DNA from: Sphingomonas sp. So64.6b
GTDB taxonomy: Bacteria > Pseudomonadota > Alphaproteobacteria > Sphingomonadales > Sphingomonadaceae
Direction of reading: 5' to 3'
Length of the DNA stretch: 64,000 nucleotides
Assembly: GCF_014171475.1 (NCBI RefSeq)
Contig: NZ_CP048817.1
Location: 4,990,501-5,054,500, forward strand
The number at the start of each line of letters is the position of its first letter. Within the stretch, counting starts at the first letter, position 1. The notes beneath the pieces were generated by a model. The model worked only from the letters and a program-made list of their open reading frames with translations, was not told where the DNA came from and did no database searches. Position numbers and translations under genes: made by a program. Positions 20,968 to 53,854 of the stretch are shown here, piece after piece.

Positions 20968-21138
20968 CATACCGTCCTCGATTGAGTATCGACGACGGAC
21001 CAGTTATCGGGTGCATCGATCAAGCTCAATGCCCTGAAATGTCTTGGGATTGCCCGGTCCCGAGATAGATGAAATCTTTCGAGGGCGCGCTTATACGTCG
21101 TGCCGACGTGCTGCTTTAAGTGTAATTGGATTGCCGTC
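20968..21138. other. Predicted origin of transfer (oriT), Ti type
   Basis: The divergent traC-traA gap is where Ti plasmids keep oriT. It contains GGGCGCGCTTATACGTCG (21083-21100), close to the Ti nic region as I recall it (GGGCGCAATTATACGTC). It is followed by a perfect hairpin ACGTCG-TGC-CGACGT (21095-21109) at the position of the Ti nic inverted repeat. The nick would be expected next to the GGGCGC. Confidence 0.72.
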
Positions 21139-30900: not shown

Positions 30901-33900
30901 TGTTTCGCGATAATTCGCCGCGTTGATAGGCGTTGCCGGTATCAGCGATGTGATGCCCTCCGCAGTCGCTGTCGATGAGAGCATCCGGTGCTCGTTATAC
31001 TCGCTAAAATAGGCGCAAAGAGCTGGGCGCGTCCAACCACTGCTCATGTTGGCAAGCCAGACATTCGTTTCCGAAGTCACTGGATCGCGATGAAATGCGG
31101 TCTGATAAAGCTGGGTGATGAACGCCGCGTTGTCGGCCGCCCCCAGACGCGCTTGGACTCCGCTATCACCAAGGATTTCTCCGAAAGCGGTGGCAAGTGC
31201 ATTTGGCCCCGGATAAAGGCTTGTCATCCGGAACGTCCAGTTTGTCACCTCCAGGGCATTCGGCACGCGGCCCAGAGCCATATGATACATGCGGACGATC
31301 TGGCTGGTGATGCTTTCCGGATCGACCGGTAGCGCGGTGAGCGCGTCGCCATAAATCCGCGTCGACGCGACGTTGCCGCTGCGGTCATAAGTCCATGTTT
31401 GCAATGTGCCTGTCGCGCCAACTTCAGCCACTTTGCAATCGAGCTTGTCGTAATAGAAAAAGGAGAAGCCGCCATCGGTCGCTTGAGAAGCGATCAGGTT
31501 GCCGCGCCTGTCATAGCCAAATCGTTCGATCGGCACGGTGCTAGTGCCGGTCGTGCCGACTGGCACTGCGTCGCCGACCGTCGTGCTCAACCGGTCAAGG
31601 CTGTCATAAGTGTAAAGCGTGGCGCGCTGCTCGGTCAGGCCGAACGCCTCGATCCGCTTCTTCATATTGCCGCGGGCGTCATATTCGAATTTGTTGATGA
31701 CGCTTGTAGCCTGGACGGTGCCGTCGCTCCTGACCGAGCTGATCGGCAAGGTTTCGCTTAGCAACAGGCCGCGCTTGTCATAGGTGTATGTGGTGGTGGC
31801 GCCCGCACCAATGACCGTCGTCGACGACTTCGCGGTGACCGATGTGCGATTGCCGAACGCGTCATAAGCGTAGGATTCGTAGAATCCGACCGCGTCGGTC
31901 GACTTAGTGAGCCGATCGAGCTTGTCATAGGCAAGCGTGGTCGTTGCGGACGCCCGGGTGACCGTCGCTGTCTGGCCGCCGCGTGTATAGCTGTAGCTGG
32001 TCGGATACCCCTCGGCGTCGGTCTGGCTGCTCAATCGGCCGAGCTTGTCATAAGCAAAGCCGGTCGTGGCGTCTTTGGCATTGGCAACGACCGAGGGTGG
32101 TGTTGTGAGGTCGGCCGTGCCGGTTACGAGGTTGAAGCGCATGGTGATGGACGAGATGTCGCCGAGGTTCGAATAGCTGGTCTGGGTCAGCTGATCTTCC
32201 GCACCGCGCGCGTGCGTGACGCGACCGAGATTGTCGTACCAGCGATAGGTCGAGTTGCCGCGCGGATCGGTGACCTTCACCACATCGCCGAAACTGTTAT
32301 AAACGAACAGGGTATCGGCACGCTCGGTGACACCGAAGGCGCGGATTTCCTTGGTCATGCGCCCGAGCGCGTCATATTCCCATTTGGTCGTGGCGGCATC
32401 TGCGGTGGTCGCGGCGACGGTGCGGTCGGTCAGACGGTAGAGTTTGTCGTAGGCAAACGTCGTGATGACGGCTTCGGTCGTGCCCGAGCCGCGCGTTTCC
32501 TTGATGACATTGCCGACCGCATCATATTCATAAGCGGTGATGGTGGCGTCGCTGGTGCCGAACGCGTCGGTCGACGATACGATCTGGCCGATCTGATCAA
32601 GCACCAGCTTGGTGACGAAGCCTTCGGGGTCGGTTGTCGTCTCGAGTCGACCGGCGCTGTCGTAAGTGAACTGGGTAACGTGCGCGGTCGCAGGCGTGCC
32701 GATCAGCGTATCGATGGCCGCAACGGTCGAGGTGTCGGTGACGGTGTAGGCGCTCTCGAAGCGCGACTGGCTCAGGACGTTGCCGAGCTTGTCATATTTA
32801 TAGCCAGTGACATAGCCAAGCGCATCGACGCTATAGGCGAGCTGGCCCTTGCGGTCGTAGAGCGAGCGGCTCGTGCGGTCGTTGGTGGCGTTGGCGTTCG
32901 ATGTCAGCCAGCTGTTCATCGCCCCGAGCAGCGGGTCGCCGGTTGTCGTGTAGAGTGCGGCGATCTGTACCTGCTTGGTCAGCTGGCCCTTGGCATCATA
33001 GGTCGCGACCGTGACCTGGCCGATCGCGTCGATGCTGTATGTCAGGCGGCCGACGGCATCATAGACCATACGCGAGATGCGGGTGCCGGGGGCTGTGGCG
33101 AGGCCTGCGACCTGGCCCGCGATCCAGGTCGCGGCGTAGACGCCGGTCCCGTCGGCGCCGATCGTGCCGTCATAGGCGATCGTGCGCAGGACCTTGCCCT
33201 GCGCATTATAGGCATATTCGGTGACATGGCCGAGCCCGTCGATCTCGAAACGAAGCTGGCCGTCCTTGTCATAGGCATAGCGAGTGACGCGGTCGCCGGC
33301 ATTGGTCGCGGGCAGCGCGAGTGCTGCCTCGGTGACTTCGAGCGGCAGGCTCGCGGGATTGACCGAGGTCAGATACTCGCGCGTCGCGACCAGCCGGCCA
33401 TCGGCGTCATAGCTGTTGGTGACCACGCCGCCGAGCGCGTCGATCGTCGCGATCCTGCGCCCCGCTTTATCATAGACATAACGCGTGATCTTGCCATCTG
33501 CATCGGTGACCGCGACCAGATTGTCGCGCGCGTCATAGGCGTAGCTTGTCGGGTTGTTCAGCGCATCGGTGACGCTCGTCAGGCGACCGTCGCGGTCATA
33601 GACCGAATTGGTGATCTTGTTGTTCGGGTTGGTCAGCTGGACCGCCCGGCCGAACGCGTCATAGCCATAGCTGGTGGTGATCGCCTTGCCGCCAGCGGCG
33701 GAATCCACCACTGCGGTCTTCAGCAGCCCGCGGCGATCATAGCTGCGGGTCGAGGCGATCGTCGCGACGCCGCCCTGCGGTACCGTGCTGCCGACCAGTT
33801 CGCCAAAACTGTTGTAGGTGAAGGTCGAGATATTGCCGAGCGCATCGGTCGATTGCTTGACCGTGCCATCGACATTGAAATCGAGATGGACGGTAGTGTC

Positions 33901-36900
33901 CAACGCAGCCGACGCCAGGCCGGTGATTGCGGTGCTGACCGCCGAGATGACCTCACCGCCGGTCCAGCTGGCGATTGTCGCCGGGGCAAGCTTGTTGGCA
34001 TAGAGGATCGTATCGCTGCGCTGGCCAAAGCTGTTGTAGCGATACTCGATCACCTCGCCGAGCGCATCGATCTGATAGGCAAGATCGCCGTCGGCGGTGT
34101 AGTAATAGAGCGTCCTCGCGCCTGCGGTTTCGAGGCCGCGTGGCTCGCGCTTGGCGATCAGCCGATCCGCCTTGTCGTAGCTATAGGTCGTCCCGTAATC
34201 GATATAGACTTGGTCGATCTGTGCCTGGGTAGGGCTGGTGATCCCGGCGAGCACGGCATTACCGACGCCGGAAAGTTCGCTGGTCAGGCGGCCGAGCCCG
34301 TCATAGCGCTGGCTATAGGTTCTGGGATCGGTACCGCCCGCCTGTGTGACGGTCGAGACCAGCTGGCGCATATTATCGTAAGTATAGGTTGTGGTCGTGG
34401 TCGCCGCACCAGTCAGGCTGCGCGTCTCGGTGAGCGCCTGGCCGAACGCGTTGCGCGTCCAGCTGGTCGTTTCCAGAATGGCACTTCCGGGCACTGGCAA
34501 AGTGGCGAGCGTCGGCGGCGTCGTGATTAGACTCGCGGGATCGAGCTTCTGTCCCCGGATCTGCTGATCGAGATAGCCGGCCGGCGTATAATGAAAGCGC
34601 GTGAGACCGCCTTCGCCATCGATGGTCGCGGCGAGAAAGCCCCGCGCGTCATAGACCAAATAGTTGCGGATATCCTTGGTGTTATCGATAGTGATGCTGG
34701 CGACGAGCTGGGCGAGCGTGCCGCTGGCGCGCAGGCCGGCGCTGGTTGCGCCCGAATAGGCGATGGTCCGGGTCTTGCGACCCGACTTGTCATAGACGAC
34801 CTCGCTCAGAAAGCCTTCAGCATCAAGCGTGGCGACCAGCTGGCCGTCGGCGCCGTAGAACAGGCGTGAGACACGGTCGCTGGCCGGATCCAGAGCGGGC
34901 AGGGCGGGGGGCGCGGCTGCCGGCCGGGCGAGGACGGGATTGCCGAACAGGATCGAGTTGCCGGCGCTCGAGCCCGACGAGCCTGATCCGACATAGACGC
35001 GCGCTATTGCATTCTCGCTTTGCCGAAACGTGCGGGTGATCGAGATGCGCGTGACCGTCGTGGTGCTGAGTCCGGCAGCGAAAAGCCCACCAACCGTCTG
35101 GCTGATCGTGCCCGGCCCCGATACGATGACCGCACTCGAATCCGTGCCGGCACCCCACAGGCTGGAACTCCCCATGATACCGAGGCTCGCCATGGTGCTG
35201 GCCGCCGAACCGGCGAGCAGGTCGAGTGTGAAGGTCAGCGTATCGCCCGCGTTCACCGGCGCGGTGGTCGATGCCGCGACAAAGGCAAGACCGCTGGACG
35301 TCGCGGTCAGTCGATAGGCGGTAACGCCACTGATCAGGCCATCGGCGCCCAGCGTCGAGCCCGCCGGCGGATCCCATTGCGCGCCTACGTTGGGGTTGGT
35401 GAAGATGTTTGCTGGTGGTACGATTTTGATCAGAGCTGGATTGCCGAACAGGATCGAGTTGCCGGCGCTCGAGCCCGACGAGCCCGATCCGACATAGACG
35501 CGCGCTATTGCATTCTCGCTTTGCCGGAAAGTGCGGGTGATCGAGATGCGGGTGACCGTTGTGGTGCTGAGCCCGGCAGCGAAAAGCCCACCAACCGTCT
35601 GGCTGATCGTGCCCGGCCCCGATACGATGACTGCACTCGAATCCGTGCCGGCACCCCATAGGCTGGAACTCCCCATGATACCGAGGCTCGCCATAGTGCT
35701 GGTCGCCGAACCGGCGAGCAGGTCGAGCGTGAAGGTCACCGTGTCGCCCGCGTTCACCGGCGCGGTGGTCGATGCCGCGACAAAGGCAAGACCGCTGGAT
35801 GTAGCGACCATCCGATACGCTGTGACTCCGCTGATCAGACCATCGGCACCAAGCGTCGAGCCCGCCGGCGTATCCCATTGCGCGGCTGCGTTGGGGTTGG
35901 TGAAGATATTCGCCGGCGCGGCTGCGTTCTTGAGCGCGTTGAGGTCGGCGGCGGTCATCTTCGTCGCCAGCTCGGTCGACGAGAGCAGCTGTGACGCACC
36001 GTCATAGGTGAACATGGTGACCGCGCCGACCGCATCGATCGTCCGGATGAGGCGCTGGGAGGCGTCGTAGAAGGTCCATCCCCAGCGGTCGGCTGCCGCA
36101 TCGGCGGCGGGGCGGATCGCATCGAGCGTGACCGTGGTCGGGTTGCCGCTCGCATCAGCGAGCGTGCCGAGCTGGGTGGCGGTCAGGCGGGTGGCGTAGG
36201 TCGTGGTGCTCGTGACGTTGTTATTGGCATTGTAGCGATATTCGGTGAGTGTGCCGTCTTCGTCGACCGTGGCCACCTTGCGGCCGGCATTGTCGTAGAA
36301 GAAGAAGGTCCGGTGGCCGACCGTGCCATTGACCGCGAGTGGATCTGCGGCGATGCGCAGGCGCCCGAGCGTGTCATATTTATAGCCAGTCACCTGGGCT
36401 GTGACATCGGCCGCCGACCGGGTCGAGGTGATCAGCTGGCCGGCGAGGTTGTAGACCGATACCTCGGTCGAGAGATTGGCGAAGGTGACGGCGGTCGTCT
36501 GCAAGGGGTCTGTGAACGTGACGAGGGTAGTGCGGCCCTCGAGATCGATCGTGCGGGTGACGCGGCTCAGTCCGTCATAGGCAAAGGTCTCGGTCTTGGT
36601 CGCGCCATTGACGACGACCTGGCGCTGCATGAGTTCGCCATGCGCGCTATAGCCATAGAGCGTTTCGCTCTTCTCCGAGGTCGTGTCGAACGCGCCGGTC
36701 GCGAGCAGCTTTGCATAGCTCGTTTCGCGGATCAGTCCGCCGCGCGCGTCATAGGCTCGCTCGGTGCGGACCGCTGCGGTGCGGTCGATCGCGCCACCGC
36801 GCCAGGTGTTGAGCGTCGTGATCGCGGTCGCGTCATCGGTCGATAGCGAGGCAGCAAGGGTGTATTGCGCGACGGTGTAGGCGGTTGATGCAACTTGCTG

Positions 36901-38319
36901 GCCATAGCTGTCATATTCGAACCAGCTGACCTTGCCCTCCGCACTGATCGAATAGGCAAGGTGCCCCTTGCCGTTATAGACGTAGCGCGTGGTTTGCGGC
37001 GTGCCTGCGGTTCCGCTGCCGGCGCCATCGGGATCGGGCACGAGATAGCGGGTCTCGGTCTGGAGTTCGTTCTTCGCTGTATAGGTTCGCGTAATGGTGT
37101 TGCCGAGCGCATCGCGCTGCGAGGTGAGGTTGCCGTGCGTGTCATAGCCATAAGCGGTGACATTGCCGTCACCCATATCGACCGAGATGACATCGCCATT
37201 GCCGTTGTAGGTGAACTTGCGGATCTGCGCGGCGGTGGTCGCATTGGCCGGGGGTGCAGTGATCTGCAGCAAATTGCCATTGGCGTCGTAGCTGAGCGTG
37301 GTGGCCTGGCCGAGCGCGTCGGTGATCGTGGTGCGCTTGTTGGCCGTGTCGTAGGCAAAGGTCGTGGAACGCGTGACACCGCTTGCAACGGTCTCGATCA
37401 GCGAAGTTACGCGATAGTCGGATCCGACCAGCGTATAGCCGATCTGCAACACCGACCCATCGCTTTGGGTGATCCCGGCGATGCGCTGGCTCGCGCCGTC
37501 ATAACTGATCGTGGTTGTGTAGACTGCGTTATCGGTCTTGCTGCCGTCGAGCGGGGTGTAATCGACCTTGATCGTGCTCAGGCGGCCGCTTGTGTCATAA
37601 CCATAATAGACCCGGGTAAGCGTCGGCGTCGTACCGCCGGTTCCGGGCGAATAAGTGTCGATCTGGTTGAGGCGGCGGGTCAGCGTATCATAGCTGAGCT
37701 TCACATACTCGCCATTGGCGTCGGTGATCTGCTGCAGCACCGCGCTCGCCGTGCTGTCGGAATAGCTATAGGTGACCGTGTTGGCATCCTGGTCGACACT
37801 ATCGGTGATGCGGCCGAACAAAGTTTCGTTATAGTTTTCCTTCAGCTGGGAACCTCCGTCGGTCCAGGTCCATGTGGTGCCGGTCCTGGTCAGCGTGTCA
37901 TAGGCGCCTTGGCCGTCCGTCGTGACATAGGCGCTGGCGCCGGTGCCGTTATAGTTGACGGTCCAGGCATAGACGGTCTCGGATCCGTCCCAGTCAGTGC
38001 GCGTGACCGTCGAGCCGGCCACTCCATAGGTCCCCGACAGACCGTAAACCTTGCGGTACCCGCTCGGACGCCAGTTATCCGCGTTGTCCGGCTGGCTCGT
38101 CGCCTGGCTGTTATAGCTATTGTCGACTTCGATATCGGTGCCGCGACCGATCAGGAACTCATCTGCCCGCGTGACGAACAGATTGCCGTTGGCGGCGTTC
38201 ACATAGACCTGTTCGAGCGCTCGCCCCAAGGTCGCTGACCCAAGCAAGCCCGCTCCGCCGAGAACGCGCGCCGAACTGCGCTCGATGCCCGTTCCAGCGC
38301 CGGTGAAGATCGCAACCAT
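24961..38319 (-). CDS. Giant RHS/YD-repeat polymorphic toxin
   Basis: About 4,452 residues, 13.4 kb uninterrupted. The N-terminus has [28 protein letters not shown], then a very long YD-repeat shell (many GxxxxYxYDxxGR units) to ~3,650. Within the shell are a 2 x 167-residue tandem module (802-1135) and a DUF4214-like segment (~2337-2450: [36 protein letters not shown]). Then come a LysM domain (~3685-3735, [19 protein letters not shown]), hydrophobic Gly/Ala helices (~3772-3830), and a variable tip ending [25 protein letters not shown], which resembles PD-(D/E)xK nuclease toxins. ATG at 38319 has a GGGGG site; GTG at 38349 is possible. No signal peptide; delivery route unknown. Confidence 0.9.
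34915..35916 (-). repeat. 501-bp in-frame tandem duplication inside the RHS gene
   Basis: Copies at 35416-35916 and 34915-35415 each encode a 167-residue module starting PANIFTNPN and ending LFGNP(A/V)L. They differ by only a few residues and are nearly identical in DNA. The module ([52 protein letters not shown]) reads as an all-beta, carbohydrate-binding-like sandwich, as in phage tail proteins. Embedded between YD repeats. Confidence 0.9.
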
Positions 38320-38820
38320 CGAACTTATCCCCCGATCGACGACCAGCACGCGAACTGACGCACCGTCCCATCACAAGGAGATCAGGAGAAAACGAGCATA
38401 GTTTAGCGGTTTTTTCCAATTATTTTTTCCGAGGTTTTCGTTTTAAAGCTGGCCGCGTTCAAACCGGGCAAAAGCAGGGCTGGTCAGGCGAGCATTCTTC
38501 TCATCCAAGCTCACGCTGGGCCAAGGCAGCCAAAAGATTTTGTGGGACGAAATGTGGGTGCGAAACCTACTTAATCGCCAGAAAGCGCCGAAACGCACGT
38601 TTCCGGCTTGACGATGGTGACCCCTACGAGAAGCAGACTGGCTGAAATTGGGCCGCAAGCCGATTGGCGGCTTTTTAAGTCGTAGCGGCAATAGCTGCCC
38701 TTCCCCGCCGCGGATCAATCTCGCCATAGAGGGATGATGGTTGCAATGTTGGATTTGTTCATCTTTTGTTTTCGCCTTGTTCTATAGTACAAAGCAGAGG
38801 CAACCAGTTGGAGAAGTAAA
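38320..38820. promoter_or_regulatory. Divergent intergenic region (RHS / beta-helix genes)
   Basis: About 500 bp with no supported gene. The RHS side is AT-rich (38395-38450, runs of T and A), a plausible promoter for the giant gene. The other side is also AT-rich just upstream of the beta-helix gene (TTGTT runs and TATAGT at ~38783-38788). A 94-codon minus-strand frame (38443-38727) has no recognisable features. Confidence 0.35.
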
Positions 38821-41512: not shown

Positions 41513-41659
41513 ATGACCGCCTATCCCACTATAAACATTAGAGAATTTGATTTTTGGAGCCGCCACAGGTATCCATTGTCCCGCAGCGATTTCCGTCCTG
41601 CTGCTTACGTGGTGCTTACGCGAGAACGCAGCATCACGCTGGAGGTGTCCAATGGCTAA
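41513..41659 (+). CDS. Possible 48-codon leader ORF before integrase
   Basis: ATG at 41513 with AAGGAG six bases upstream encodes 48 residues (MTAYPTINIREFDFWSRHRY...) and ends in TAA at 41657-41659, overlapping the integrase ATG at 41652 by 8 bp. Overlap and ribosome site suggest possible translational coupling. No family recognised, and a chance frame is possible. Confidence 0.3.
   Translation: MTAYPTINIREFDFWSRHRYPLSRSDFRPAAYVVLTRERSITLEVSNG
41602..41620. repeat. Tandem TGCTTACG repeats upstream of second integrase
   Basis: TGCTTACG at 41602-41609 and 41613-41620, 11 bp apart. Same geometry as the TTTTCCGTAC pairs of the first element but a different sequence, consistent with arm sites of the second integrase. 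They lie between the tRNA fragment and the integrase. Confidence 0.4.
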
Positions 41660-43010
41660 GATCACGAAGAGGGTCGTAGACGCGGCGGATACCCGCGAGA
41701 AGGACTATGTCGTCTGGGACGACGAACTCCCTGGTTTCGGCCTCCGCGTATTCGCCTCGGGCAAGCGCAGCTACGTCATTCAGTATCGATTGGCGGGCCG
41801 CTCGCGTCGCTTCACCATCGGCCTCCACGGCGTCTGGACGCCCGAGCGTGCTCGCCAGGAGGCGAAGGCTCAATTGGGTCGCGTGGCGCAAGGTGAAGAC
41901 CCGGCCGAGGAGAAGCAGATCGACCACAAGGCGCTTACCGTCAAAGAGCTGTGCGATCTGTATCTCGCCGACCTGAAGGCCGGCCTCATTCTCGGCAAGG
42001 GCGACCGCCCGAAGAAACCGAGCACCATCGTCACCGACACGGGTCGCATCGAGCGCCACATCATTCCCTTGCTCGGTACTCGGCGGGTCAAGGACCTGAC
42101 CAAGCCCGATATCGCCAAGGCCTTGAAGGACATCATGGCGGGCAAGACCCGCTGCAGCGTCAAGACGAAGAAGCTGAGGGGCAGGGCCATCGTGCGCGGC
42201 GGCGCCGGCACCGCGACGCGCACCATTGGGCTGTTCGGCGGCATCCTGACCTATGCCGTCGAGAACGGGATCATTGAGGTCAATCCGGCCCGTGGCGTGC
42301 GACGCCCCAAGGACAATGTGCGAGGACGACGACTGACCGAGGCCGAATATCGCACGCTCGGCGCCATCCTCCAGGGTGCGGTAGAGAACGAGAAGTATGA
42401 GATGTCGGTGGAGATCATCCGCCAACTCGCGCTCACCGGATGCCGCCGCACCGAAATGGTGAAGCTGCAATGGGTCGAGGCCGACACGGAATCGAGCTGC
42501 CTTCGCCTCATCGACAGCAAGGAAGGAATGTCGATCAGGCCGATGGGGCTGCCGGTCGTGGAGTATTTCGAAAGCCGGCGGCATGCGGAGGTCGGAACCT
42601 ATGTCTTCGCCGGCCAGGGCGACGACAACGCCTTCGGCAGCTTCCCGAACCACTGGGAACAGATATTCGAGGACACCGCGCTCGCCGACATCACGCCCCA
42701 TGTCCTGCGGCACAGCTTCGCCAGCATAGCCAATGATCTCGGCTTCACCGAAGTGACGATCGCGGCGCTGGTCGGCCACTCGAAGGGGTCGGTCACCAGC
42801 AACTACATCCACACCCTCGACACGGCGCTGATCATGGCGGCGGACACGATCTCGGGCTACATTCAGGGGCTGCTCGACGGGATCGAGTTCAAGCAGACCG
42901 CCTATGCGCTCGACCGCGACTCCCGCAAGGCGGCGCTGGCCCGCTTCCTCCAGAAGGCCGCTGCCGATTCCGACGATGCGGTCGACGCCGATCAGCGTCT
43001 CGCCGCATGA
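41652..43010 (+). CDS. Tyrosine integrase, P4/DUF4102 type
   Basis: A 452-residue integrase. The N-terminal DUF4102 arm-binding domain is clear (LPGFGLRVFASGKRSYVIQYR, GRSRRFTIGLHG), then a core-binding domain (LCDLYLADLKAGLI...), and a catalytic domain with R in ALTGCRRTEM, HVLRHSFAS, LVGHS and nucleophile Y in NYIHTLD. All canonical residues are present, unlike the other integrase in this window. GGAGG precedes the ATG at 41652. It reads inward from the tRNA-Arg fragment and should integrate this element at tRNA-Arg(CCG). Confidence 0.92.
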   Translation: MAKITKRVVDAADTREKDYVVWDDELPGFGLRVFASGKRSYVIQYRLAGRSRRFTIGLHGVWTPERARQEAKAQLGRVAQGEDPAEEKQIDHKALTVKELCDLYLADLKAGLILGKGDRPKKPSTIVTDTGRIERHIIPLLGTRRVKDLTKPDIAKALKDIMAGKTRCSVKTKKLRGRAIVRGGAGTATRTIGLFGGILTYAVENGIIEVNPARGVRRPKDNVRGRRLTEAEYRTLGAILQGAVENEKYEMSVEIIRQLALTGCRRTEMVKLQWVEADTESSCLRLIDSKEGMSIRPMGLPVVEYFESRRHAEVGTYVFAGQGDDNAFGSFPNHWEQIFEDTALADITPHVLRHSFASIANDLGFTEVTIAALVGHSKGSVTSNYIHTLDTALIMAADTISGYIQGLLDGIEFKQTAYALDRDSRKAALARFLQKAAADSDDAVDADQRLAA

Positions 43011-43081
43011 CCCACTCTCCAGCGTTTCAGTTATTGCAGTTAAGCTCCATTCGTCCTATATTGACTGGCAAGGAGAAGTCC

Positions 43082-43528
43082 ATGACCAGCCAAGTCGTCC
43101 AGTTCGCCGGCCTGTCCGACCGGGACCGCAAGAAGGTGGCGCCGCTGGCCAAGCTGGCGGAGGGCGATCATGTCGAGTTGCATGTTCGCCGCCGCGACGG
43201 CGGCGAGCAAACCTTGTCGCTGCCGTCGGCCGCCAACGGTGTCGTCGAGACGCTGCTCTTGCGCCTGCTCAGCGGCGAGCGCGTCGCGGTGCTCACCGAA
43301 GATCAGGAACTGAGCCCGACCGAAACCTCGACCGTGCTCGGCATCTCGCGGCCGCTCGTCGTTCACCGGATGGATATCGGCGACCTGCCGTTTCGCTATG
43401 TCGGCAAGCATCGCCGCGCGCTGCTGAAGGACGTGCTGGCGCTCAAGGAACGGCTCGATGCCCGCCAGAAGGCGCTCGACGCCTTGGCCGAAGACACAGA
43501 GGATCTCATCGTCAATCATGGCCTCTAA
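43082..43528 (+). CDS. Antitoxin with excisionase-like helix-turn-helix
   Basis: A 148-residue protein upstream of and overlapping a PIN-domain gene. It has a helix-turn-helix of the excisionase type (LSPTETSTVLGISRPLVVHRMDIGDLPFRYVGKHRRALLKDV) and a helical C-terminal tail (ALKERLDARQKALDALAEDTEDL) suited to gripping the toxin. AAGGAG precedes the ATG at 43082. It likely neutralises the toxin and autoregulates the pair. Confidence 0.78.
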   Translation: MTSQVVQFAGLSDRDRKKVAPLAKLAEGDHVELHVRRRDGGEQTLSLPSAANGVVETLLLRLLSGERVAVLTEDQELSPTETSTVLGISRPLVVHRMDIGDLPFRYVGKHRRALLKDVLALKERLDARQKALDALAEDTEDLIVNHGL

Positions 43529-44096
43529 ACCGCCGGTCGCGGTCTATGATGCCTGCGTCCTCTATCCCTTCCATCTCCGCAATATCCTGATCCAGTGCGC
43601 GGTCGACGGCTTGGTCTTCGCGCGCTGGACGGACGAGATCCATGCGGAGTGGATACGCAACCTGGTCGCCAATTCGCCGACGACCTCCATCAATCGCCTG
43701 GAGGCGACCCGCGACAGGATGAAGGCTGTCCTGCCGGATGCCGATGTCGCCGGCTATGAAGCGTTGATTCCAAACCTCTCGCTGCCCGATCGCGATGACC
43801 GGCATGTTCTGGCCGCCGCGATCACAGGCAACGCCGGGGTTATCGTGACGTGGAACCTGAAGGATTTTCCCACTTCGCACACCGCGCAACATGGGATCGC
43901 CTGCATCTCTCCGGACGACTTCCTCGTGAGCCTTCACAGGACATTCCCGAAATTGCTGGTCGCCAGCGTCGCGCGCGCTCGACAGAACCTCCGGAAGACC
44001 ATGCCATCGGTCAAAGAGTTCATAGAGGCGCTGGAGCGCCAAGGCCTCGCGGCCTTTGCCACGACCCTTCGGCGGTACGAAGCGCAACTGGCTTGA
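43518..44096 (+). CDS. PIN-domain toxin (putative ribonuclease)
   Basis: A 192-residue PIN protein with acidic-site residues D11 (VAVYDACVLYP), E44 (IHAEWIRNL), D91/D93/D94 (LPDRDDRHVLAAA) and N113/D116 (TWNLKDFP). It starts 11 bp inside the antitoxin gene, typical of coupled type II toxin-antitoxin pairs. The C-terminal extension after ~125 (DFLVSLHRTFPKLLVASVARARQNL...) is longer than in VapC. Probably an RNase that stabilises the element. Confidence 0.82.
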   Translation: MASKPPVAVYDACVLYPFHLRNILIQCAVDGLVFARWTDEIHAEWIRNLVANSPTTSINRLEATRDRMKAVLPDADVAGYEALIPNLSLPDRDDRHVLAAAITGNAGVIVTWNLKDFPTSHTAQHGIACISPDDFLVSLHRTFPKLLVASVARARQNLRKTMPSVKEFIEALERQGLAAFATTLRRYEAQLA

Positions 44097-44428
44097 TCGA
44101 TAGTAGGCCGCCGACACTGCCGCCAGCGTGTGTAATTCTGAAGCCGAAGCACACTCCGACCGCCTGTAAAAGATGGATTCCGTCTGCGACCATAATGGTC
44201 GTCCTCGATAAAGCCGCGTTCGCAGATTTGCTGAGTTTCGAATGGATCTAGGGATTGGTCGTTAAGGGGGAAGGTCTTCCCCTGCGTCCGAGCCTGTCGT
44301 CTCGGTCGACCCCTTCTGCGGGGAGGCCCCGCAACGCCCCTTTTAGAGGAAGAGGACGGACCGGCTTTGCCGTGACGGGTTGAGGGTTGGAGAAGAGGTC
44401 TCCGGCGCCCGTCGTGGAGATTGGTCCC
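44097..44428 (+). promoter_or_regulatory. Intergenic region with structured 5' leader 1 (DUF932 gene)
   Basis: 332 bp without a gene. The last ~94 bp (44335-44428) closely resemble the leader of the ParB-like gene (45704-45796). The predicted fold has an outer stem GACGGG (44374-44379)/CCCGTC (44408-44413) and an inner stem GTTGGAGA (44386-44393)/TCTCCGGC (44399-44406). GGAGA (44416-44420) then lies 8 bp before the ATG. A C/G-rich inverted repeat is also present near 44320-44335. Confidence 0.6.
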
Positions 44429-45625
44429 ATGACCCAGGTTTCAGTTCTAGAGGCCCGCCGCGACACCAGCGGCGGCTACAAAGTGGATGTCGGCCGCGGC
44501 GAGCGGATCGGCCGCGTCTCGTCCGAATGGTTCTCCCGCCCGGCCGACGAGCGATATCTGTCGCTGTCCGAACTGGCGCACTCAGTTCGCGACCGCGCCG
44601 ATCGCAGCCGGACGCGCCTCGTGGAGAGCGCGCTCATCCATGTGGAGGCGAACCGCAGCGACCCCGAGCGGCTGGCGTTGATACTGCCCGGCACGGATAC
44701 GCCCGTCGCCCCGACCCATTGGAGCTTCGGCCAACTGGCCAGCCTGGTCGGCGCCCCGGCAGCCTATCTGCGCCAACTCCCCGCACCACTCGCCGCGATC
44801 AACCTGCAATATGGCCTGACGTCCAATCGGGCAGAGCAGATCAAGACGCTGGAAACCGACAATGGCCGGGTCGAACTGCGCGCCGTCACCGGCCCGGACT
44901 ATGGCCGCATCTACGACCACGAGCTGGTCGAGGCCGTGCAGCGCATCGCCGGCAACGGCACGGGCGACACCCGCTGGAAAGTGCCCGGGGTGCTCGACTG
45001 GTCGACGGGAATCTACAATCCCCGCGTCGACATCACCAAGGATACGACGACGCTCTACGCCTCCGACCGCGACGTCTTCCTTTTCCTCGTCGATGACCTG
45101 AACCCGATCGAGGCCGGTCGCCTGCCAGACGGCTCGCCGGATCTCTATTTCCGGGGCTTCTACTGCTGGAATTCAGAGGTCGGCGCCAAGACCCTCGGCA
45201 TGGCGAGCTTCTATCTGCGCGCGGTCTGCCAGAACCGGAATCTCTGGGGCGTGGAGGATTTCGAGGAGATCACCATCCGTCATTCCAAACATGCCGCCAA
45301 CCGCTTCGCCCATGAGGCGGCGCCGGCGCTGGCGAACTTCGCCAATTCCTCGCCGCTGCCGTTCGTCAACGGCATCAAGGCGGCCCGCGAGCGGATCGTG
45401 GCGCGCAGCGACGAGAATCGCACTGACTTCCTGCGCCGCCGCGGTTTCTCGAAGGCCGAAACCGGCAAGATCATCGACACGGTGTTGGCCGAGGAAGGGC
45501 GGCCGCCCGAGAGCATCTTCGATTTCGTGCAGGGCATCACCGCCGTCGCGCGCGACAAGCCCCATCAGGACGCCCGCCTCGACATGGAGGCCAAGGCGAA
45601 GAAGCTGCTCAATCGAGCCGCCTGA
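44429..45625 (+). CDS. DUF932 domain protein
   Basis: A 398-residue protein of the DUF932 family (phage/plasmid-related, unknown biochemical role), recognised from WSFGQLASLVGAPAAYLRQLPAPLAAINL, LRAVTGPDYGRIYDHELVEAV, LYASDRDVFLFLVDD and FYCWNSEVGAKTLGMASFYLRAVCQNRNLWG. Start at the first ATG after the structured leader and GGAGA. It is common in alphaproteobacterial ICE backbones upstream of a ParB-like gene, as here. It shares its leader structure with that gene, suggesting co-regulation. Confidence 0.82.
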   Translation: MTQVSVLEARRDTSGGYKVDVGRGERIGRVSSEWFSRPADERYLSLSELAHSVRDRADRSRTRLVESALIHVEANRSDPERLALILPGTDTPVAPTHWSFGQLASLVGAPAAYLRQLPAPLAAINLQYGLTSNRAEQIKTLETDNGRVELRAVTGPDYGRIYDHELVEAVQRIAGNGTGDTRWKVPGVLDWSTGIYNPRVDITKDTTTLYASDRDVFLFLVDDLNPIEAGRLPDGSPDLYFRGFYCWNSEVGAKTLGMASFYLRAVCQNRNLWGVEDFEEITIRHSKHAANRFAHEAAPALANFANSSPLPFVNGIKAARERIVARSDENRTDFLRRRGFSKAETGKIIDTVLAEEGRPPESIFDFVQGITAVARDKPHQDARLDMEAKAKKLLNRAA

Positions 45626-45703
45626 CATCCGCATAGCCGGAGATGCGGTTTTCCGTGTCTCCGGCTTTGCGCTTCCGCGTGTCCCAATTCCGTTCCGTGG
45701 CGC

Positions 45704-45796
45704 TGCCCCCTTTAGAGGAAGAGGGCGGCGCTTCGCTTCGTGACGGGTTTAGGGCTGAGAGAGAGTCTCTCGGCGCCCGTCGCGGAGACTACCCCG
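45704..45796 (+). promoter_or_regulatory. Structured 5' leader 2 (ParB-like gene)
   Basis: Near-copy of the DUF932 leader (shared TTTAGAGGAAGAGG, GTGACGGGTT, GGCGCCCGTCG.GGAGA). The outer stem is GACGGG (45742-45747)/CCCGTC (45776-45781). The inner stem is a 9-bp GCTGAGAGA (45754-45762)/TCTCTCGGC (45766-45774) with loop GAG. Inner-stem base changes relative to leader 1 keep pairing (GGAGA/TCTCC becomes GAGAGA/TCTCTC), which supports RNA structure. Confidence 0.62.
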
Positions 45797-47920
45797 ATGG
45801 CTACTGCCGTTCAGAAGATCACCCTGTCGTCCTCGCGCGACATCCCCTTCAACAAGCTGGTCCTGTCCCAGTCCAACGTCCGGCGCGTGAAGGCCGGCGT
45901 CTCGATCGAGGACCTCGCGGCCTCGATCGCCCGTCGCGGCCTAATCCAGAGCCTCAGCGTCCAGCCCGTCGTCGATGCCGATGGCGTCGAGACCGGCATG
46001 TTCGAGGTCCCGGCCGGGGGCCGGCGCTACCGGGCGCTCGAACTGCTCGTAAAGCAGAAGCGCCTCGCCAAGATCGCGCCGGTGCCCTGCATCGTGCGCG
46101 ACCACGACAGCGATATCCTCGCCGAGGAGGTCTCGCTCGCGGAGAATATCGAGCGTGCCCCGCTTCATCCTCTCGATCAGTACCGCGCCTTCCAGGACAT
46201 GCGCGGCAAGGGCATGACAGAGGAGGAAATCGCCGCGGCGTTCTTCGTCCCGGTGAATGTGGTGAAGCAGCGGCTGCGTCTCGCGTCGGTGTCGCAATCG
46301 CTCCTCGACGTCTATGCCGAAGACGGCATGACGCTGGAGCAGCTCATGGCGTTCACGGTCTCCGACGACCATGCCCGCCAGCAGCAGGTCTGGGACGCGA
46401 TCAAGGACGCCTGGGCCAAGGAGCCCTATCAGATCCGGCGCATGCTGACCGAGACGACGGTGCGCGCGTCCGAAAAGCGCGCTGTGTTCGTCGGCATCGA
46501 GGCCTATGAGACGGCGGGCGGCATTGTCATGCGCGACCTGTTCCAGTCCGACGATGGCGGATGGCTGCAGGACCCGGCGCTCCTCGACCGCCTCGTTAAC
46601 GAGAAGCTGAAGGCCGAAGCCGAGACGATCGCGGCCGAAGGCTGGAAGTGGATCGAGGTGGCCGTGAGTTTCCCGTACGATGCGGCACGCAGCCTGCAGG
46701 AGATCACCGGAACGCCGCTGGACCTCTCGGCCGAAGAGCAGGCGACCATCGACGCGTTGAATGCCGAGATGGCGAAGCTGGAAGCCGAATATCAGGACGC
46801 CGACGAGCTGCCGGACGAGATCGATCAGCGCCTCGGTGAAATCGAGACCGCGCTCGCGAACTTCGAGAATCGTCCGGTTCACTACGAGCCGGCCGATATC
46901 GCCATCGCCGGCGTGTTTGTCAGCATCGACGCCGACGGCTCGCTCACGGTCGATCGCGGCTTTGTCCGTCCCGGGGACGTTCCGGCCAACCCGGTCGACG
47001 GCGACGGCAACACCGCGTCGGGGCCCGATGGCGCATCGCGCGAACCAGCCGGCCCGACGGTGCAGCGCGCCGTCATCACCATCGGCGGCCAGCCCGCCGA
47101 GCCGGACGATGACGACGAAGACGACATGATCAAGCCGCTGCCCGAACGCCTGGTCATCGAGCTGACCGCCTACCGCACGCTCGCGCTGCGCGATGCCGTG
47201 GCGAGCAACCCGCACATCGCCATGACAGCGCTGCTGCACAAGCTCGTCTCGGATCGGTTCATGACCCGCATGTATAACGGCGCCATGGAGATGGGTGTGA
47301 AGCACATCTACTTCCCTGCCCAGGACGAGGGTCTGACGGACAGCCCCTCCGCGCGCGCGGTGCGGGAGCGGCACGACGCCTGGGCCGCCGATATCCCCAA
47401 AGACGACGACGCACTTTGGTACTGGCTCGCCGGCCTCGACGATGCCAGCCGCATGGCGCTGCTGGCGCACTGCGTCAGCTACGGCGTGAACGCGCTCTAC
47501 GAGCGGCCGAATCCGCACAGCTCCAGCGGCGTGTCGCAGTATACGCTCGACATGCGGCTGGCCCAGGCCGACCGCCTGACGCGGGCGACCGGGCTCGATA
47601 TGGTGGAGGCGGGCTGGCGTCCGACCTTCGGCAACTACCTCAATCGGGTGACCAAGCCGCGCATCCTCGAGGCCGTCCGCGAGGCGAAGGGCGAACAGGC
47701 CGCGCAGCTCATCGACCACCTCAAGAAGGGCGACATGGCGAAGGAGGCCGAACGGCTCCTGGCTGACAGCGGCTGGCTGCCCGAGCCGCTGCGCCTCGCT
47801 GATCCCGTCGATCAGCCTGACGCCGGTGACGCCCAGGCGTTGCCCGACTTCCTCGCCGATGACGATGACGAGGTGGCCGAAGCCGATGAAGACACGTCTG
47901 AACTCATCGCAGCCGAATAG
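45797..47920 (+). CDS. ParB/RepB/Spo0J-family nuclease-like protein
   Basis: A 707-residue protein. The N-terminal ParB domain (residues ~15-130) shows FNKLVLSQSNVRRV, IARRGLIQSLSVQP, VPAGGRRYRALE and EEVSLAENIER (ParB boxes with the CTP/DNA-binding GGRRYR). A KorB-like helix-turn-helix follows (MTEEEIAAAFFVPVNVVKQRLRLASVS). The long C-terminal part includes an acidic linker (EPDDDDEDDM) and a distinct domain (FMTRMYNGAMEMGVKHIYFPAQ...). It is larger than partition ParB, and no parA is adjacent. Typical ICE/plasmid backbone gene, likely a regulator or nuclease. Confidence 0.83.
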   Translation: MATAVQKITLSSSRDIPFNKLVLSQSNVRRVKAGVSIEDLAASIARRGLIQSLSVQPVVDADGVETGMFEVPAGGRRYRALELLVKQKRLAKIAPVPCIVRDHDSDILAEEVSLAENIERAPLHPLDQYRAFQDMRGKGMTEEEIAAAFFVPVNVVKQRLRLASVSQSLLDVYAEDGMTLEQLMAFTVSDDHARQQQVWDAIKDAWAKEPYQIRRMLTETTVRASEKRAVFVGIEAYETAGGIVMRDLFQSDDGGWLQDPALLDRLVNEKLKAEAETIAAEGWKWIEVAVSFPYDAARSLQEITGTPLDLSAEEQATIDALNAEMAKLEAEYQDADELPDEIDQRLGEIETALANFENRPVHYEPADIAIAGVFVSIDADGSLTVDRGFVRPGDVPANPVDGDGNTASGPDGASREPAGPTVQRAVITIGGQPAEPDDDDEDDMIKPLPERLVIELTAYRTLALRDAVASNPHIAMTALLHKLVSDRFMTRMYNGAMEMGVKHIYFPAQDEGLTDSPSARAVRERHDAWAADIPKDDDALWYWLAGLDDASRMALLAHCVSYGVNALYERPNPHSSSGVSQYTLDMRLAQADRLTRATGLDMVEAGWRPTFGNYLNRVTKPRILEAVREAKGEQAAQLIDHLKKGDMAKEAERLLADSGWLPEPLRLADPVDQPDAGDAQALPDFLADDDDEVAEADEDTSELIAAE

Positions 47921-49282: not shown

Positions 49283-49446
49283 ATCCGTCTCTCCCTTGTC
49301 CTCGCCCGGTGAAGCGCGCGCGTCCTCGATCGTCGAGGCTGCCGCCCGCCATGTTCTGGATGACGGAATGTAGCGCCGCGCAGCCGACCTCGGAAGACGA
49401 AGCGGTCAAAAGGTCATTGCGCGCGCCAGAGTGAGAGGTTCGCCGG

Positions 49447-49522
49447 GACGGGTTCGAGCCGGTGCGGTCGAGAGAGAGCGCCTGCCGGCTCCTCCGTTTC
49501 CCGCTCTCCCGAGGTGTCCTCC
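49447..49522 (+). promoter_or_regulatory. Structured 5' leader 3 (helicase gene)
   Basis: Shares GACGGGTT and a GGTCGAGAGAGAG segment with leaders 1 and 2. It can form GAGCCGG (49456-49462)/CCGGCTC (49485-49491) just upstream of GAGGTG and the ATG at 49523. Similarity is weaker than between leaders 1 and 2, and the outer GACGGG has only a partial partner (CCCG near 49500). Confidence 0.4.
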
Positions 49523-52500
49523 ATGACCATCGCTTCCGCATCCGCGGCCGTTCCGGCTGCGCCGTTTCCGCTTGCCGCGAGCCCGGCACCGGCCGCCATC
49601 CTCGCCGCCGCCCACAGCCTTCTCCCCCATCTCGAACGCGGCCAGCGCGTCGATGCCGCAACCTTGCGCGGCGCGATGGAGGCAGCTCTCGGCGCCTCCG
49701 ACACGTCCGGCGCCTGGAACTGGAAGACGGCCTACGAGGCCTGCGAAGCGGCAACGGTGCTGTTTCTGCGCAAATACGGAAAGGCGGTTATGCGCAAGTC
49801 CGGGTCTCCGGCTGCCAGCCTGCCCATGCTGGCCAGGATCGCGAGCCTGATGCCGACGCATACGCGGCGCGCGGAGGAGACGCAGGCCTTCCAGCAGTTC
49901 TCGACGCCGATGCCGTTCGGTCTCGCTGCGCTCACAGCGGCTGCGATCACGCCCGCCGACTGCGTGCTGGAGCCCTCGGCCGGGACCGGGCTGCTCGCCG
50001 TCCTGGCCGAGATTGCCGGGGCGAGGCTGATGCTCAACGAGCTGGCAGACACGCGCGCAGACCTTCTGTCCTCCCTCTTCCCGGCCATTCCCGTCACTCG
50101 CTTCGACGCCGCCCAGATCGACGATCACCTCGAAGCGACCGCGGTGCCGAGCGTCGTGTTGATGAATCCGCCGTTCTCGGTGATGGCGAACGTCTCCGGC
50201 CGCATGACTGAGGCCGCCTATCGCCACGTCGCCTCAGCGCTGGCGCGTCTGGCGGATGGTGGACGGCTCGTGACGATCACGGGCGCCAGCTTCGCGCCGG
50301 ACGCACCGGCCTGGCGCGACGCGTTTGCCCGGCTGCAGGAGCGCGGCACTGTTGTGTTCACCGCAGCGATCGACGGCTCGGTTTATGCCAAGCACGGTAC
50401 GACGATCGAGACACGCCTGACGGTGATCGACAAGACGCCCGCCGACGATCCCACCGTGTTCCCGCCATCGGCCGGGGTCGCGCCCGATGTCGCGACGGTG
50501 CTCGGATGGATCGAAACCCAGGTGCCGGCAAGGCTCCCGGTCACACTGCCGCGGACGATATCTGCCGTCTCGGCGCCTCGCACCGTGCGCGGTTATCTCG
50601 CTCGCGCCGCGTCGTCGCCGGCCCGCACCATCGCCGAACCCGAAGGCGTCGAACTCGCCTATGAAACCGTCGACTGGACCCCGCCCGAGGGTGGCCGGCT
50701 GACCGATGCCATCTATGAGGAATACGGGCTTCAGGCGATCCGTATTCCCGGCGCTCAGGCGCACCCGACCAAGCTGGTCCAGTCCGCTGCTATGGCCTCG
50801 GTCGCACCGCCGAAGCCGAGCTACCGGCCGATGCTCCCCGCCAGCATCGTCATCGACGGCATCCTGTCCGACGCCCAGCTCGAAACGGTGATCTATGCCG
50901 GCGACGCCCATGGCGAATTCCTCGCAGGCTCATGGACCGTGGATGAGACCTTCGACCTCGTCTCGGCCGCGCCCGACGATGCCCAGAACGCCGTCCGCTT
51001 TCGCCGCGGCTTCATGCTCGGCGACGGCACCGGCGCCGGCAAAGGCCGCCAATCGGCCGGCATCATCCTCGACAACTGGATGCGCGGACGTCGCAAGGCG
51101 GTCTGGATTTCCAAATCCGAAAAGCTGCTGGAAGACGCGCAGCGCGACTGGTCGGCGCTCGGCATGGAACGCCTGCTGGTAACGCCGCTGTCGCGCTTCC
51201 CGCAGGGCAAGCCGATCACGCTCGGCCAAGGCGTCCTATTCACCACCTATGCCACGCTACGATCCGACGATCGTGGCGAGAAGCTTTCGCGCGTCAAGCA
51301 GATCGTCGAATGGTTGGGCTCCGATTTCGATGGAGTGATCATCTTCGACGAGAGCCACGCCATGCAGAACGCCGCTGGCGGCAAGGGCGAACGCGGTGAC
51401 GTCGCCGCCTCGCAACAGGGCCGTGCCGGCCTGCGGCTCCAGCACGCTTTGCCGAACGCGCGCGTCGTGTACGTTTCGGCGACCGGCGCCACGACGGTCC
51501 ACAATCTTGCCTATGCGCAGCGGCTCGGCCTCTGGGGCGGCGAGGATTTCCCCTTCGCCACGCGGGCCGAATTCGTGGAAGCCATCGAGGACGGCGGCGT
51601 TGCGGCAATGGAAGTGCTGGCCCGCGACCTGCGCTCGCTCGGCCTCTACACCTCTCGCTCGCTCTCCTATGACGGCGTCGAATATGAACTGGTCGAGCAC
51701 CAGCTCACGCCCGAGCAGACGCGCATCTACGATGCCTATGCCGGGGCGTTCGCAATCATCCACAAGAATCTCGACGCCGCGATGCAGGCCGCCAACATCA
51801 CTGGCGACACCGGCACGCTGAACCGGCAGGCCAAGTCCGCCGCCCGCTCGGCCTTTGAGAGCGCCAAGCAGCGTTTCTTCGGCCATCTCCTCACCAGCAT
51901 GAAGACGCCGACCCTGATCCGCTCGATCGATCAGGACCTGGCCGATGGCCATGCCGCCGTGATCCAGATCGTCTCCACCGGCGAGGCGCTGATGCAACGC
52001 CGCCTGGCCGAGATCCCGACCGAGGAATGGAACGACGTCCGCGTCGACATCACGCCGAGGGAATATGTCCTCGATTACCTCGCTCATTCCTTCCCGGTGC
52101 AGCTCTACGAGCCGTTCACCGATAGCGAGGGCAATCTGTCGTCGCGCCCGGTCTATCGCGATGGCCAGCCCGTCGAAAGCCGCGAGGCTGTCGCACGCCG
52201 TGACAGCCTGATCGAGACGCTGGCCAGCCTGCCGCCGGTCCCCGGCGCGCTCGACCAGATCGTCCAGCGCTTCGGCACGGACATCGTCGCGGAAGTCACC
52301 GGCCGATCGCGGCGGATCGTCCGCAAGTCGCGTGCCGACGGCAGGGGCGATCGCCTCGCCGTCGAGAACCGCGCCGCTTCCGCCAATCTGGCGGAAACCT
52401 CCGCCTTCATGGACGACCTGAAGCGCATCCTCGTCTTCTCGGATGCTGGCGGCACGGGCCGCAGCTATCACGCCGACCTGTCGGCGCGGAACCAGCGGCT

Positions 52501-53854
52501 GCGCGTCCACTATCTCCTCGAACCGGGCTGGAAAGCCGATGCTGCGATCCAGGGCCTCGGTCGCACCAATCGCACAAACCAGCAGCAACCGCCGCTGTTC
52601 CGGCCGATCGCGACCAACGTCAAGGCCGAGAAGCGCTTCCTCTCCACCATCGCCCGTCGGCTCGACACCCTCGGCGCCATCACCAAGGGCCAGCGCCAGA
52701 CCGGCGGCCAGGGCCTGTTCAGGCCCGAGGACAATCTGGAGAGCCACTATGCCCGCGACGCACTGCGCCAGCTCTACCTGTTGCTGGTCCGGGGCAAGGT
52801 CGAGGGCTGCTCACTGCAGATGTTCGAGGATGCAACCGGCCTGTCGCTGATGGATTCGGGCGGCATCAAGGATGAGCTGCCGCCGATCACAACCTTCCTC
52901 AACCGGTTGCTGGCGCTGACCATCTCGCTACAGGGCATCCTGTTCACGGCGTTCGAACAACTTCTCAACGCCAAGATTGAGGGCGCCATCGCCAGCGGCG
53001 TCTATGACCTCGGGCTGGAGACGCTCCAGGCCGAGAGCTTCATCGTCACCGACCGGACGACCATCCATGTCCATCCGGGCACCGGCGCCGAGACGCAGTT
53101 GCTCAGGATCATGCGGCGCGAACGCAACCGGCCCACCTCACTCGACGGCGCGTTCGGTCTTGTCGGCGACCGCCAAGCAAAGCTATTGGTCAACGGCCGC
53201 TCCGGCCGAGCTGCCGTACAAATTCCGGCATCGTCCATCATGCTCGACGACGGCGAGATCGAGCGTCGCGTCGCGCTGATCCGCCCGATGGAACAGCACC
53301 ACGCCACCCTGCGCTCGATGGACGAGAGCCATTGGCAGGAAGCCGAACGGAACAGCTTTGTGGAGGCTTGGACCGCCGAGATGGCGGAAGTGCCGGAATT
53401 CTCCGACAGCACGATCCATATCGTCGCCGGGCTTCTCCTGCCGATCTGGAAGCGTCTGCCGAACGAATCGACCCGGGTTTACCGGCTCCAGACCGACCCG
53501 GGCGAACGCATCATTGGCCGCCGCGTATCGCCGGCCTGGGTCGCGGGCGCATTGGCGACGGGCGCAAATACGCTGACGCCGGACGACGCGTTCAAGGCGT
53601 TGATAGACGGCCGCACAATCCTCGACATCGCCGAGGGCATGCAGCTTCGCCGTGTTCGCGTCATGAGCGCCAACCGCATCGAACTCTCGGGCTTCACCGA
53701 CGCGATGCGTGACCGCCTTCGCGCCTATGGCCTGTTCAGCGAGATCATATCGTGGAAGCTGCGCTTCTTCGTGCCGACCGACGCTACCGGTCCCACGATC
53801 CTCACCAAGGTGCTGGAGCGCTACGCGATCGAGCGCGTCAGTGAGGCCGCATGA
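49523..53854 (+). CDS. Methyltransferase / strawberry-notch-type SNF2 helicase
   Basis: A 1,443-residue protein. The N-terminal third is an SAM-methyltransferase-like domain with VLEPSAGTGLLAVLAE and the N6-adenine-type motif NPPF near residue 214. The rest is a strawberry-notch-like SF2 helicase: Walker A GDGTGAGKGRQ near 500, DESH near 607, and GLGRTNRTNQQQ (motif VI) near 1011. Such fused proteins are backbone genes of large alphaproteobacterial plasmids and ICEs. They may act in DNA protection or replication after transfer, but no role is established here. GAGGTG precedes the ATG; the stop overlaps the next gene. Confidence 0.86.
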   Translation: MTIASASAAVPAAPFPLAASPAPAAILAAAHSLLPHLERGQRVDAATLRGAMEAALGASDTSGAWNWKTAYEACEAATVLFLRKYGKAVMRKSGSPAASLPMLARIASLMPTHTRRAEETQAFQQFSTPMPFGLAALTAAAITPADCVLEPSAGTGLLAVLAEIAGARLMLNELADTRADLLSSLFPAIPVTRFDAAQIDDHLEATAVPSVVLMNPPFSVMANVSGRMTEAAYRHVASALARLADGGRLVTITGASFAPDAPAWRDAFARLQERGTVVFTAAIDGSVYAKHGTTIETRLTVIDKTPADDPTVFPPSAGVAPDVATVLGWIETQVPARLPVTLPRTISAVSAPRTVRGYLARAASSPARTIAEPEGVELAYETVDWTPPEGGRLTDAIYEEYGLQAIRIPGAQAHPTKLVQSAAMASVAPPKPSYRPMLPASIVIDGILSDAQLETVIYAGDAHGEFLAGSWTVDETFDLVSAAPDDAQNAVRFRRGFMLGDGTGAGKGRQSAGIILDNWMRGRRKAVWISKSEKLLEDAQRDWSALGMERLLVTPLSRFPQGKPITLGQGVLFTTYATLRSDDRGEKLSRVKQIVEWLGSDFDGVIIFDESHAMQNAAGGKGERGDVAASQQGRAGLRLQHALPNARVVYVSATGATTVHNLAYAQRLGLWGGEDFPFATRAEFVEAIEDGGVAAMEVLARDLRSLGLYTSRSLSYDGVEYELVEHQLTPEQTRIYDAYAGAFAIIHKNLDAAMQAANITGDTGTLNRQAKSAARSAFESAKQRFFGHLLTSMKTPTLIRSIDQDLADGHAAVIQIVSTGEALMQRRLAEIPTEEWNDVRVDITPREYVLDYLAHSFPVQLYEPFTDSEGNLSSRPVYRDGQPVESREAVARRDSLIETLASLPPVPGALDQIVQRFGTDIVAEVTGRSRRIVRKSRADGRGDRLAVENRAASANLAETSAFMDDLKRILVFSDAGGTGRSYHADLSARNQRLRVHYLLEPGWKADAAIQGLGRTNRTNQQQPPLFRPIATNVKAEKRFLSTIARRLDTLGAITKGQRQTGGQGLFRPEDNLESHYARDALRQLYLLLVRGKVEGCSLQMFEDATGLSLMDSGGIKDELPPITTFLNRLLALTISLQGILFTAFEQLLNAKIEGAIASGVYDLGLETLQAESFIVTDRTTIHVHPGTGAETQLLRIMRRERNRPTSLDGAFGLVGDRQAKLLVNGRSGRAAVQIPASSIMLDDGEIERRVALIRPMEQHHATLRSMDESHWQEAERNSFVEAWTAEMAEVPEFSDSTIHIVAGLLLPIWKRLPNESTRVYRLQTDPGERIIGRRVSPAWVAGALATGANTLTPDDAFKALIDGRTILDIAEGMQLRRVRVMSANRIELSGFTDAMRDRLRAYGLFSEIISWKLRFFVPTDATGPTILTKVLERYAIERVSEAA

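Follow-up and report, generated by a model that had tools for sequence, protein, structure and literature searches.

Structured 5' leader RNAs shared by unrelated, antirestriction- and establishment-like genes of alphaproteobacterial mobile elements

Why should genes whose products are unrelated begin with nearly the same leader? The question arises in a 64,000-nucleotide stretch of the genome of Sphingomonas sp. So64.6b (contig NZ_CP048817.1; hereafter the window), which carries on its forward strand a DUF932-type gene (44429-45625; Pfam PF06067 with an E value of 0.0023, i.e. below the cut-off, relatives being called DUF932 in plasmid records), a ParB-like gene (45797-47920; Pfam ParB_N, E 6.4e-8) and a strawberry-notch-like helicase gene (49523-53854; Pfam AAA_34, E 1.6e-122, and Helicase_C_4, E 1e-96). 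Directly upstream of the leaders, 41547-44096 encodes a tyrosine integrase with an Arm domain and a PIN-domain protein, and this region is perhaps an end of the element. Elsewhere in the window we observed a mobilization gene away from the leaders (21100-23997, forward strand), in which a MobA/MobL relaxase domain is fused to RecD/TraI-type helicase domains, a very large reverse-strand open frame (24961-38346) whose 4461-aa product would contain RHS repeats and a LysM domain, and a reverse-strand CheB-CheR-PAS-histidine kinase fusion (56599-60183), flanked by the helicase module on one side and a DUF736 gene (61637-61957) on the other.

The initial annotation had described the regions before 44429 and 45797 as near-copies, and indeed 44335-44428 and 45703-45796 are copies of one element with 78 identical columns among 99 aligned. 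A blastn search of the own genome with the DUF932 leader matched the ParB leader at 82% identity (E 2.9e-13; positions 12-96 of the 111-nt query) and, beyond it, found only a 26-nt match (E 0.49). While the copies stand, the proposed start about 94 bp before the genes does not, since the element begins at an AGAG-NN-AGAG repeat (44345, 45714 and, before the helicase gene, 49428). This repeat occurs four times on the forward strand of the window and not at all on the other strand, and three of the four occurrences are the leaders. Taken from the repeat to the start codon, the DUF932 leader spans 44343-44431 (90.5 bits with the class I covariance model R1, of which it is a training sequence) and the ParB leader 45712-45799 (94.8 bits, likewise a training sequence), both on the forward strand.

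Folding predicts for both copies the outer stem and inner hairpin that had been described. In the DUF932 leader, the repeat (44345-44354) is followed by the 5' strand of the outer stem P2 (44370-44379), whose first bases are the partners of the Shine-Dalgarno GG, by the hairpin P3 with AGAG in its apical loop (44387-44405) and by the 3' strand of P2 (44408-44417), which ends in the GG of the Shine-Dalgarno sequence GGAG (44416-44419). The ParB leader has the same arrangement, with P2 strands at 45738-45747 and 45776-45785, P3 at 45754-45774 and the GG of the Shine-Dalgarno sequence (45784-45787) covered by the 3' strand of P2. In addition, its repeat (45714-45723) is enclosed in a predicted hairpin, P1 (45699-45732); a hairpin of this kind surrounds the repeat in 91% of 100 ParB leaders and in 45% of 87 DUF932 leaders.

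The helicase leader proved to be a relative as well, as had been suspected, yet one of a distinct kind. R1, built from an alignment of 64 leaders (A2), found no match to it in the window at E values up to 10, and together with its orthologues it forms a second leader class. For this class II we built the covariance model R2 from 33 helicase-type leaders (alignment A3), i.e. the window sequence plus 32 of 45 pattern matches, the rest being near-identical or too long. R2 matches 49426-49525 on the forward strand with 100.3 bits (E 4.7e-30; a training sequence) and nothing else in the own genome at E values up to 5. In other loci, R2 also matches class I leaders, none of which were used to build it, and these matches end where the class I leaders do, at the start codon (best E 4.7e-6).

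Compared with shuffled sequences, the fold energy is exceptional for the ParB copy only (z -5.16, against -0.70 for the DUF932 and -0.48 for the helicase leader), so the case for a structured RNA rests on comparison. Class I was represented by 130 leader copies, of which 79 were left after removal of near-identical ones; 76 of these entered alignment A1, and A2 holds the 64 sequences mentioned. In A2, 96.0% of 1081 cells pair, whereas slid versions never exceed 48%, and all seven P3 pairs have changed on both sides; the inner part of P2 is almost invariant and is therefore a weak witness for pairing. On a tree of 199 of the 223 class I matches we counted 31 compensatory events, compared with a mean of 2.9 for permuted partners (0 of 500 permutations as high) and at most 4 for slid, off-register partners. 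P2 alone contributed 9 events versus 1.3 (2 of 500 as high) and P3 22 versus 4.3 (0 of 500). Pair-breaking events numbered 99 against a permuted mean of 71, a count not exceeded in 475 of 500 permutations, which we attribute to the true pairs being mostly paired at the outset. Evidence for covariation beyond phylogeny is thus mixed: it comes from the compensatory events, but not from an R-scape-like all-pairs G-test of the same 199-leader alignment against a substitution-replay null, in which no pair reached an E value below 0.05; we think that the deep split between DUF932 and ParB leaders raises the null in this test. Class II on its own covaries weakly.

The kind of imperfect pair tells which strand folds. 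In class I, Watson-Crick pairs have changed to G.U in 114 cases, to A.C in 28 and to other mismatches in 53, while in unpaired columns the corresponding transitions number 229 and 272, respectively; class II cells show 81 G.U against 35 A.C. The excess of G.U indicates that the mRNA-sense strand folds, and it is predicted neither by a DNA palindrome nor by a fold of the complementary strand. This weighs against the view that the leaders are double-stranded DNA sites, operators or partition-like, whose inverted repeats merely resemble RNA stems. Such sites would suit a leader that precedes the ParB-like gene in 24 of the 26 genomes tabulated, an association which also makes self-regulation possible, but the position and orientation of the leader are fixed at the start codon, and the few compensatory events of off-register pairings add to the strand bias in making this explanation very improbable. 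From the aligned sequences we conclude that the leaders are a real family of structured RNAs that fold on the sense strand.

The situation is different for a conserved region with three inverted repeats upstream of the DUF932 leader (about 44265-44333, forward strand). This 5' extension of about 77 nt is strongly conserved and precedes 44 of 90 DUF932 and 9 of 13 ArdC leaders, but none of 107 ParB leaders. By a manual count, its two outer repeats hold 20 G.U cells against 29 of A.C, and without a sense-strand bias a role at the DNA level fits better than one as RNA. The extension is possibly a promoter or operator of the DUF932 and ArdC genes. 

To assess whether the family had already been described, we searched Rfam 15. 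At the gathering score no family has a match in the window, and six further loci yielded rRNA and tRNA only. Below the cut-off, the matches overlapping leaders are at chance level, namely mir-605 (18.3 bits against a cut-off of 98) and, on class II, RF_site1, Atu_C7 (10.6 bits, cut-off 45) and GHRLOS; in 14 more loci, a single match below the cut-off touches the edge of a leader. In the openly licensed literature, we found no title or abstract on the leader, and strings of its sequence turned up only in unrelated papers. The proposal of an undescribed structured RNA in front of unrelated genes is thus supported by compensatory change, by the G.U bias and by the lack of an Rfam match at the cut-off, and a new cis-regulatory RNA family is the best reading of these data.

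Across an even draw of genomes from the class, R1 matches 29 of 385, including the own genome and two genomes with weak matches (E 0.0018 and 0.0095), and in the class sample R2 matches 23 of 372, five of them only at E values above 1e-4 and probably due to chance. In a sample of the phylum, 25 of 299 genomes match R1, all from the class of the window, the share of other classes in the draw not being given. Among 72,556 plasmid records, a distant blastn search located the DUF932 leader in 91 and the ParB leader in 98, at up to five places per record, and the genera among the matches listed are alphaproteobacterial. In the genome collection, the closest DUF932 loci carry the leader before DUF932 in 80 of 80 cases and also before the ParB-like gene in 75, which is no census because the loci were picked by the DUF932 protein and many of them were used in model building. 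Among 50,697 phage records, none matched the ParB leader; two contigs of a viral collection (L190 and L191) both contain the exact class I pattern. For class II, R2 searches covered 94 sources, plus 23 of the 80 DUF932 loci, which were searched separately. The helicase start was located in 64 sources and is preceded by an AGAG-like repeat and a GA-rich loop in 47, to which the model added one locus (L115), while 16 of the 64, mostly sphingomonad records, show neither of the leader patterns nor an R2 match upstream. Other sphingomonad loci do have the helicase leader (L010, L029 and L053).

Which genes follow the leaders? The 223 class I matches stand before 107 ParB-like, 91 DUF932 and 13 ArdC genes, three genes of a 185-aa family and nine others, so that 214 end at a gene from one of four families; the nine comprise three short N-termini, two reads in the wrong frame, one RadC and three single proteins. 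The genes behind class II leaders are those for the helicase, ArdB/KlcA (in several loci in tandem with the helicase) and DUF6878 and, in one genome, a RadC-like gene as judged by eye. Pfam searches with representatives confirmed ArdC, the RadC of class I, ArdB (Antirestrict) and DUF6878. Taken together, at least seven unrelated protein families lie downstream of the two classes, which supports the initial proposal of an RNA shared by unrelated genes. The 182-185-aa family behind class I leaders (L115:23337-23971 and L114:20066), whose L115 member is without a Pfam match, is a candidate establishment gene.

The target set looks like the antirestriction and establishment-like genes of conjugative elements. 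KlcA-type antirestriction genes have been reported in leading-region islands (PMC11541004); DUF932, ArdC and RadC are not mentioned in the main text of that paper. In the Sphingopyxis indica plasmid pMC4, the order is tRNA, ArdC, DUF2958, ParB-like, 185-aa gene, helicase, toprim and DUF2493, followed by DUF736, DUF2285, RepA, ParA, DUF2840, signal peptidase, DUF736, DUF3363, TraG and Trb genes, the DUF3363 gene being the relaxase by context. All leader genes of pMC4 are oriented towards the DUF3363 (relaxase-like) and TraG genes. This orientation would suit Frpo/ssi-like leaders, i.e. single-stranded DNA promoters or initiation sites that fold on the strand transferred and work upon entry; moreover, part of the gene set is leading-region-like, and structured elements precede several such genes, as with Frpo (PMC11541004). 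By the Frpo model, however, it is the template strand that would have to fold, where every G.U becomes an A.C, and the 114 versus 28 bias lies with the sense strand; this argument takes the transferred strand from gene order in one plasmid, pMC4. A scan for -35/-10 boxes of the sigma-70-like type, which an Frpo hairpin would hold, gave no site between 44000 and 49700, a result of little weight since only 0.5 sites were expected by chance. As the element also ends at the Shine-Dalgarno sequence, we regard a single-stranded DNA site as very unlikely for the leader itself. The 5' extension before DUF932 and ArdC, with no sense bias in its outer repeats, may be such a site.

If the leaders are RNA, their likely point of action is the ribosome-binding site. 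P2 takes up the two Gs at the start of GGAG, the first in 63 and the second in 60 of 64 sequences. In 196 unique leaders with a recognizable Shine-Dalgarno sequence, which are related to each other, the median probability that this sequence is unpaired is 0.039, compared with 0.305 for 222 control genes taken from these loci and 0.293 after shuffling of the upstream parts of 60 leaders, whereas start codons are equally unpaired in leaders and control genes. The predicted folds thus show the Shine-Dalgarno sequence occluded by P2. The second conserved trait is the sequence AGAG itself: among 206 unique class I leaders, 173 have the exact repeat, with NN taking eleven different forms, and 181 carry an AGAG between the two arms of P2. 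Furthermore, only 44-48 nt separate the DUF932 stop codon from the ParB leader in 17 of 75 loci, which leaves little room for a separate promoter and makes action within the operon mRNA plausible.

Control could also be exerted before translation, with a transcription attenuator or antitermination site inside the leader. The leaders are rich in hairpins, and a terminator-like hairpin at 45629-45648 lies after the DUF932 gene and before the ParB leader, but the copies in the window have no U-run after P2 and P3, the structure overlaps the ribosome-binding site, and terminator-like sites are at chance level in the region (2 found, 2.6 expected). We consider attenuation highly implausible. Two further ideas were dropped. 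A small upstream frame inside P2 (GTG/ATG-ACG-GGT-TGA), spotted by eye, is not conserved in ParB leaders. Nor is a general switch claimed for the alternative hairpin that the strand facing the Shine-Dalgarno sequence could form: this hairpin was counted in 48 of 70 DUF932 leaders versus 20 expected and in 10 of 64 ParB leaders, below the 19 expected, with 14 DUF932 and 29 ParB leaders not parsed. The ArdC count is void, since in 6 of 12 leaders the pattern picked up a GACGG further upstream, and some DUF932 rows may be affected in this way too.

Occlusion by P2, conservation of AGAG and the short gap together favour translational control in the operon mRNA by an AGAG-binding factor, and regulation of the target genes through their leaders is likely. 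In such a scheme, the leader would be transcribed with its gene, P2 would by default hold the two leading Gs of GGAG and so keep the ribosome off, and the AGAG-NN-AGAG repeat together with the AGAG of the P3 loop would be the likely handle for a trans-acting RNA-binding factor, which may stabilize or open P2 in answer to a signal. One putative factor could then set ArdC, ArdB, RadC, DUF932, ParB-like and helicase genes together, for instance low in a resident element and high after entry. That the leaders form a family acting in cis on translation through a factor that reads AGAG is the reading we hold to be somewhat probable; the result of the all-pairs test, the weak covariation of class II and the 16 helicase genes that have no leader count against it.

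As to the identity of the factor, two candidates did not pass as general partners. CsrA is rejected as such, because its gene is present in only 4 of 29 leader-bearing genomes and missing from the own genome. DUF736, a small protein with two genes in pMC4, occurs in 21 of 29 leader-bearing genomes and in 1 of 14 others, which were not a random draw; it is linked to the leaders but not required, being absent from 8 of the 29. A sequence search of DUF736 against solved structures gave one match (E 0.059). As ways in which AGAG might be read, TRAP-like binding and pairing with 16S rRNA were also considered. The failure of both candidates is in line with a constitutive structural leader, whose hairpins shield the mRNA or offer a purine-rich standby site without switching and without a partner, and the 5' AGAG repeat is indeed rich in purines and predicted to be unpaired by about half. 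However, strong occlusion of the Shine-Dalgarno sequence, as predicted, would cost translation unless it were opened, and such a leader does not account for AGAG tetramers that stay the same from one unrelated gene to the next as the two bases separating them change. We therefore take a purely structural leader to be unlikely, though a serious alternative to control by an AGAG-reading factor.

A more specific version of that control can be put forward tentatively, with rather more doubt than belief: a single RNA-binding factor would read AGAG and release the antirestriction and establishment regulon translationally on entry. Its gene would lie on the element or in the host, and the factor may itself be among the target proteins. 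Such control would do at the RNA level what single-stranded promoters do in F-type plasmids. The whole target set may be one establishment regulon, which the shared leader would mark by sequence. The covariance models provide the means to find further members, as with DUF6878 and the 185-aa family, and the common leader makes post-transcriptional control at entry directly testable.

To our knowledge, no common control of antirestriction and establishment genes has been described for alphaproteobacterial conjugative elements. Other leaders that occlude the ribosome-binding site resemble the present ones in their conserved 5' structure, in compensatory change and in a Shine-Dalgarno sequence placed in a stem, but here one leader is common to many unrelated genes of one mobile-element module. 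CsrA/Rsm-controlled leaders likewise have a stem that contains the Shine-Dalgarno GGA; in contrast, the conserved motif of the present leaders is AGAG, and 25 of the 29 genomes are without a CsrA gene. In ICEMlSymR7A, an element with DUF2285/DUF6499 genes as in pMC4, translational control is exerted by a programmed frameshift inside the coding sequence, which makes FseA (PMC10359603), and the main text of that paper does not contain the word 'leader'. The Frpo/ssi single-stranded promoters (PMC11541004) share with our leaders a structured element before leading-region, anti-defence genes, whereas the leaders described here are constrained as sense-strand RNA and are seated on the ribosome-binding site.
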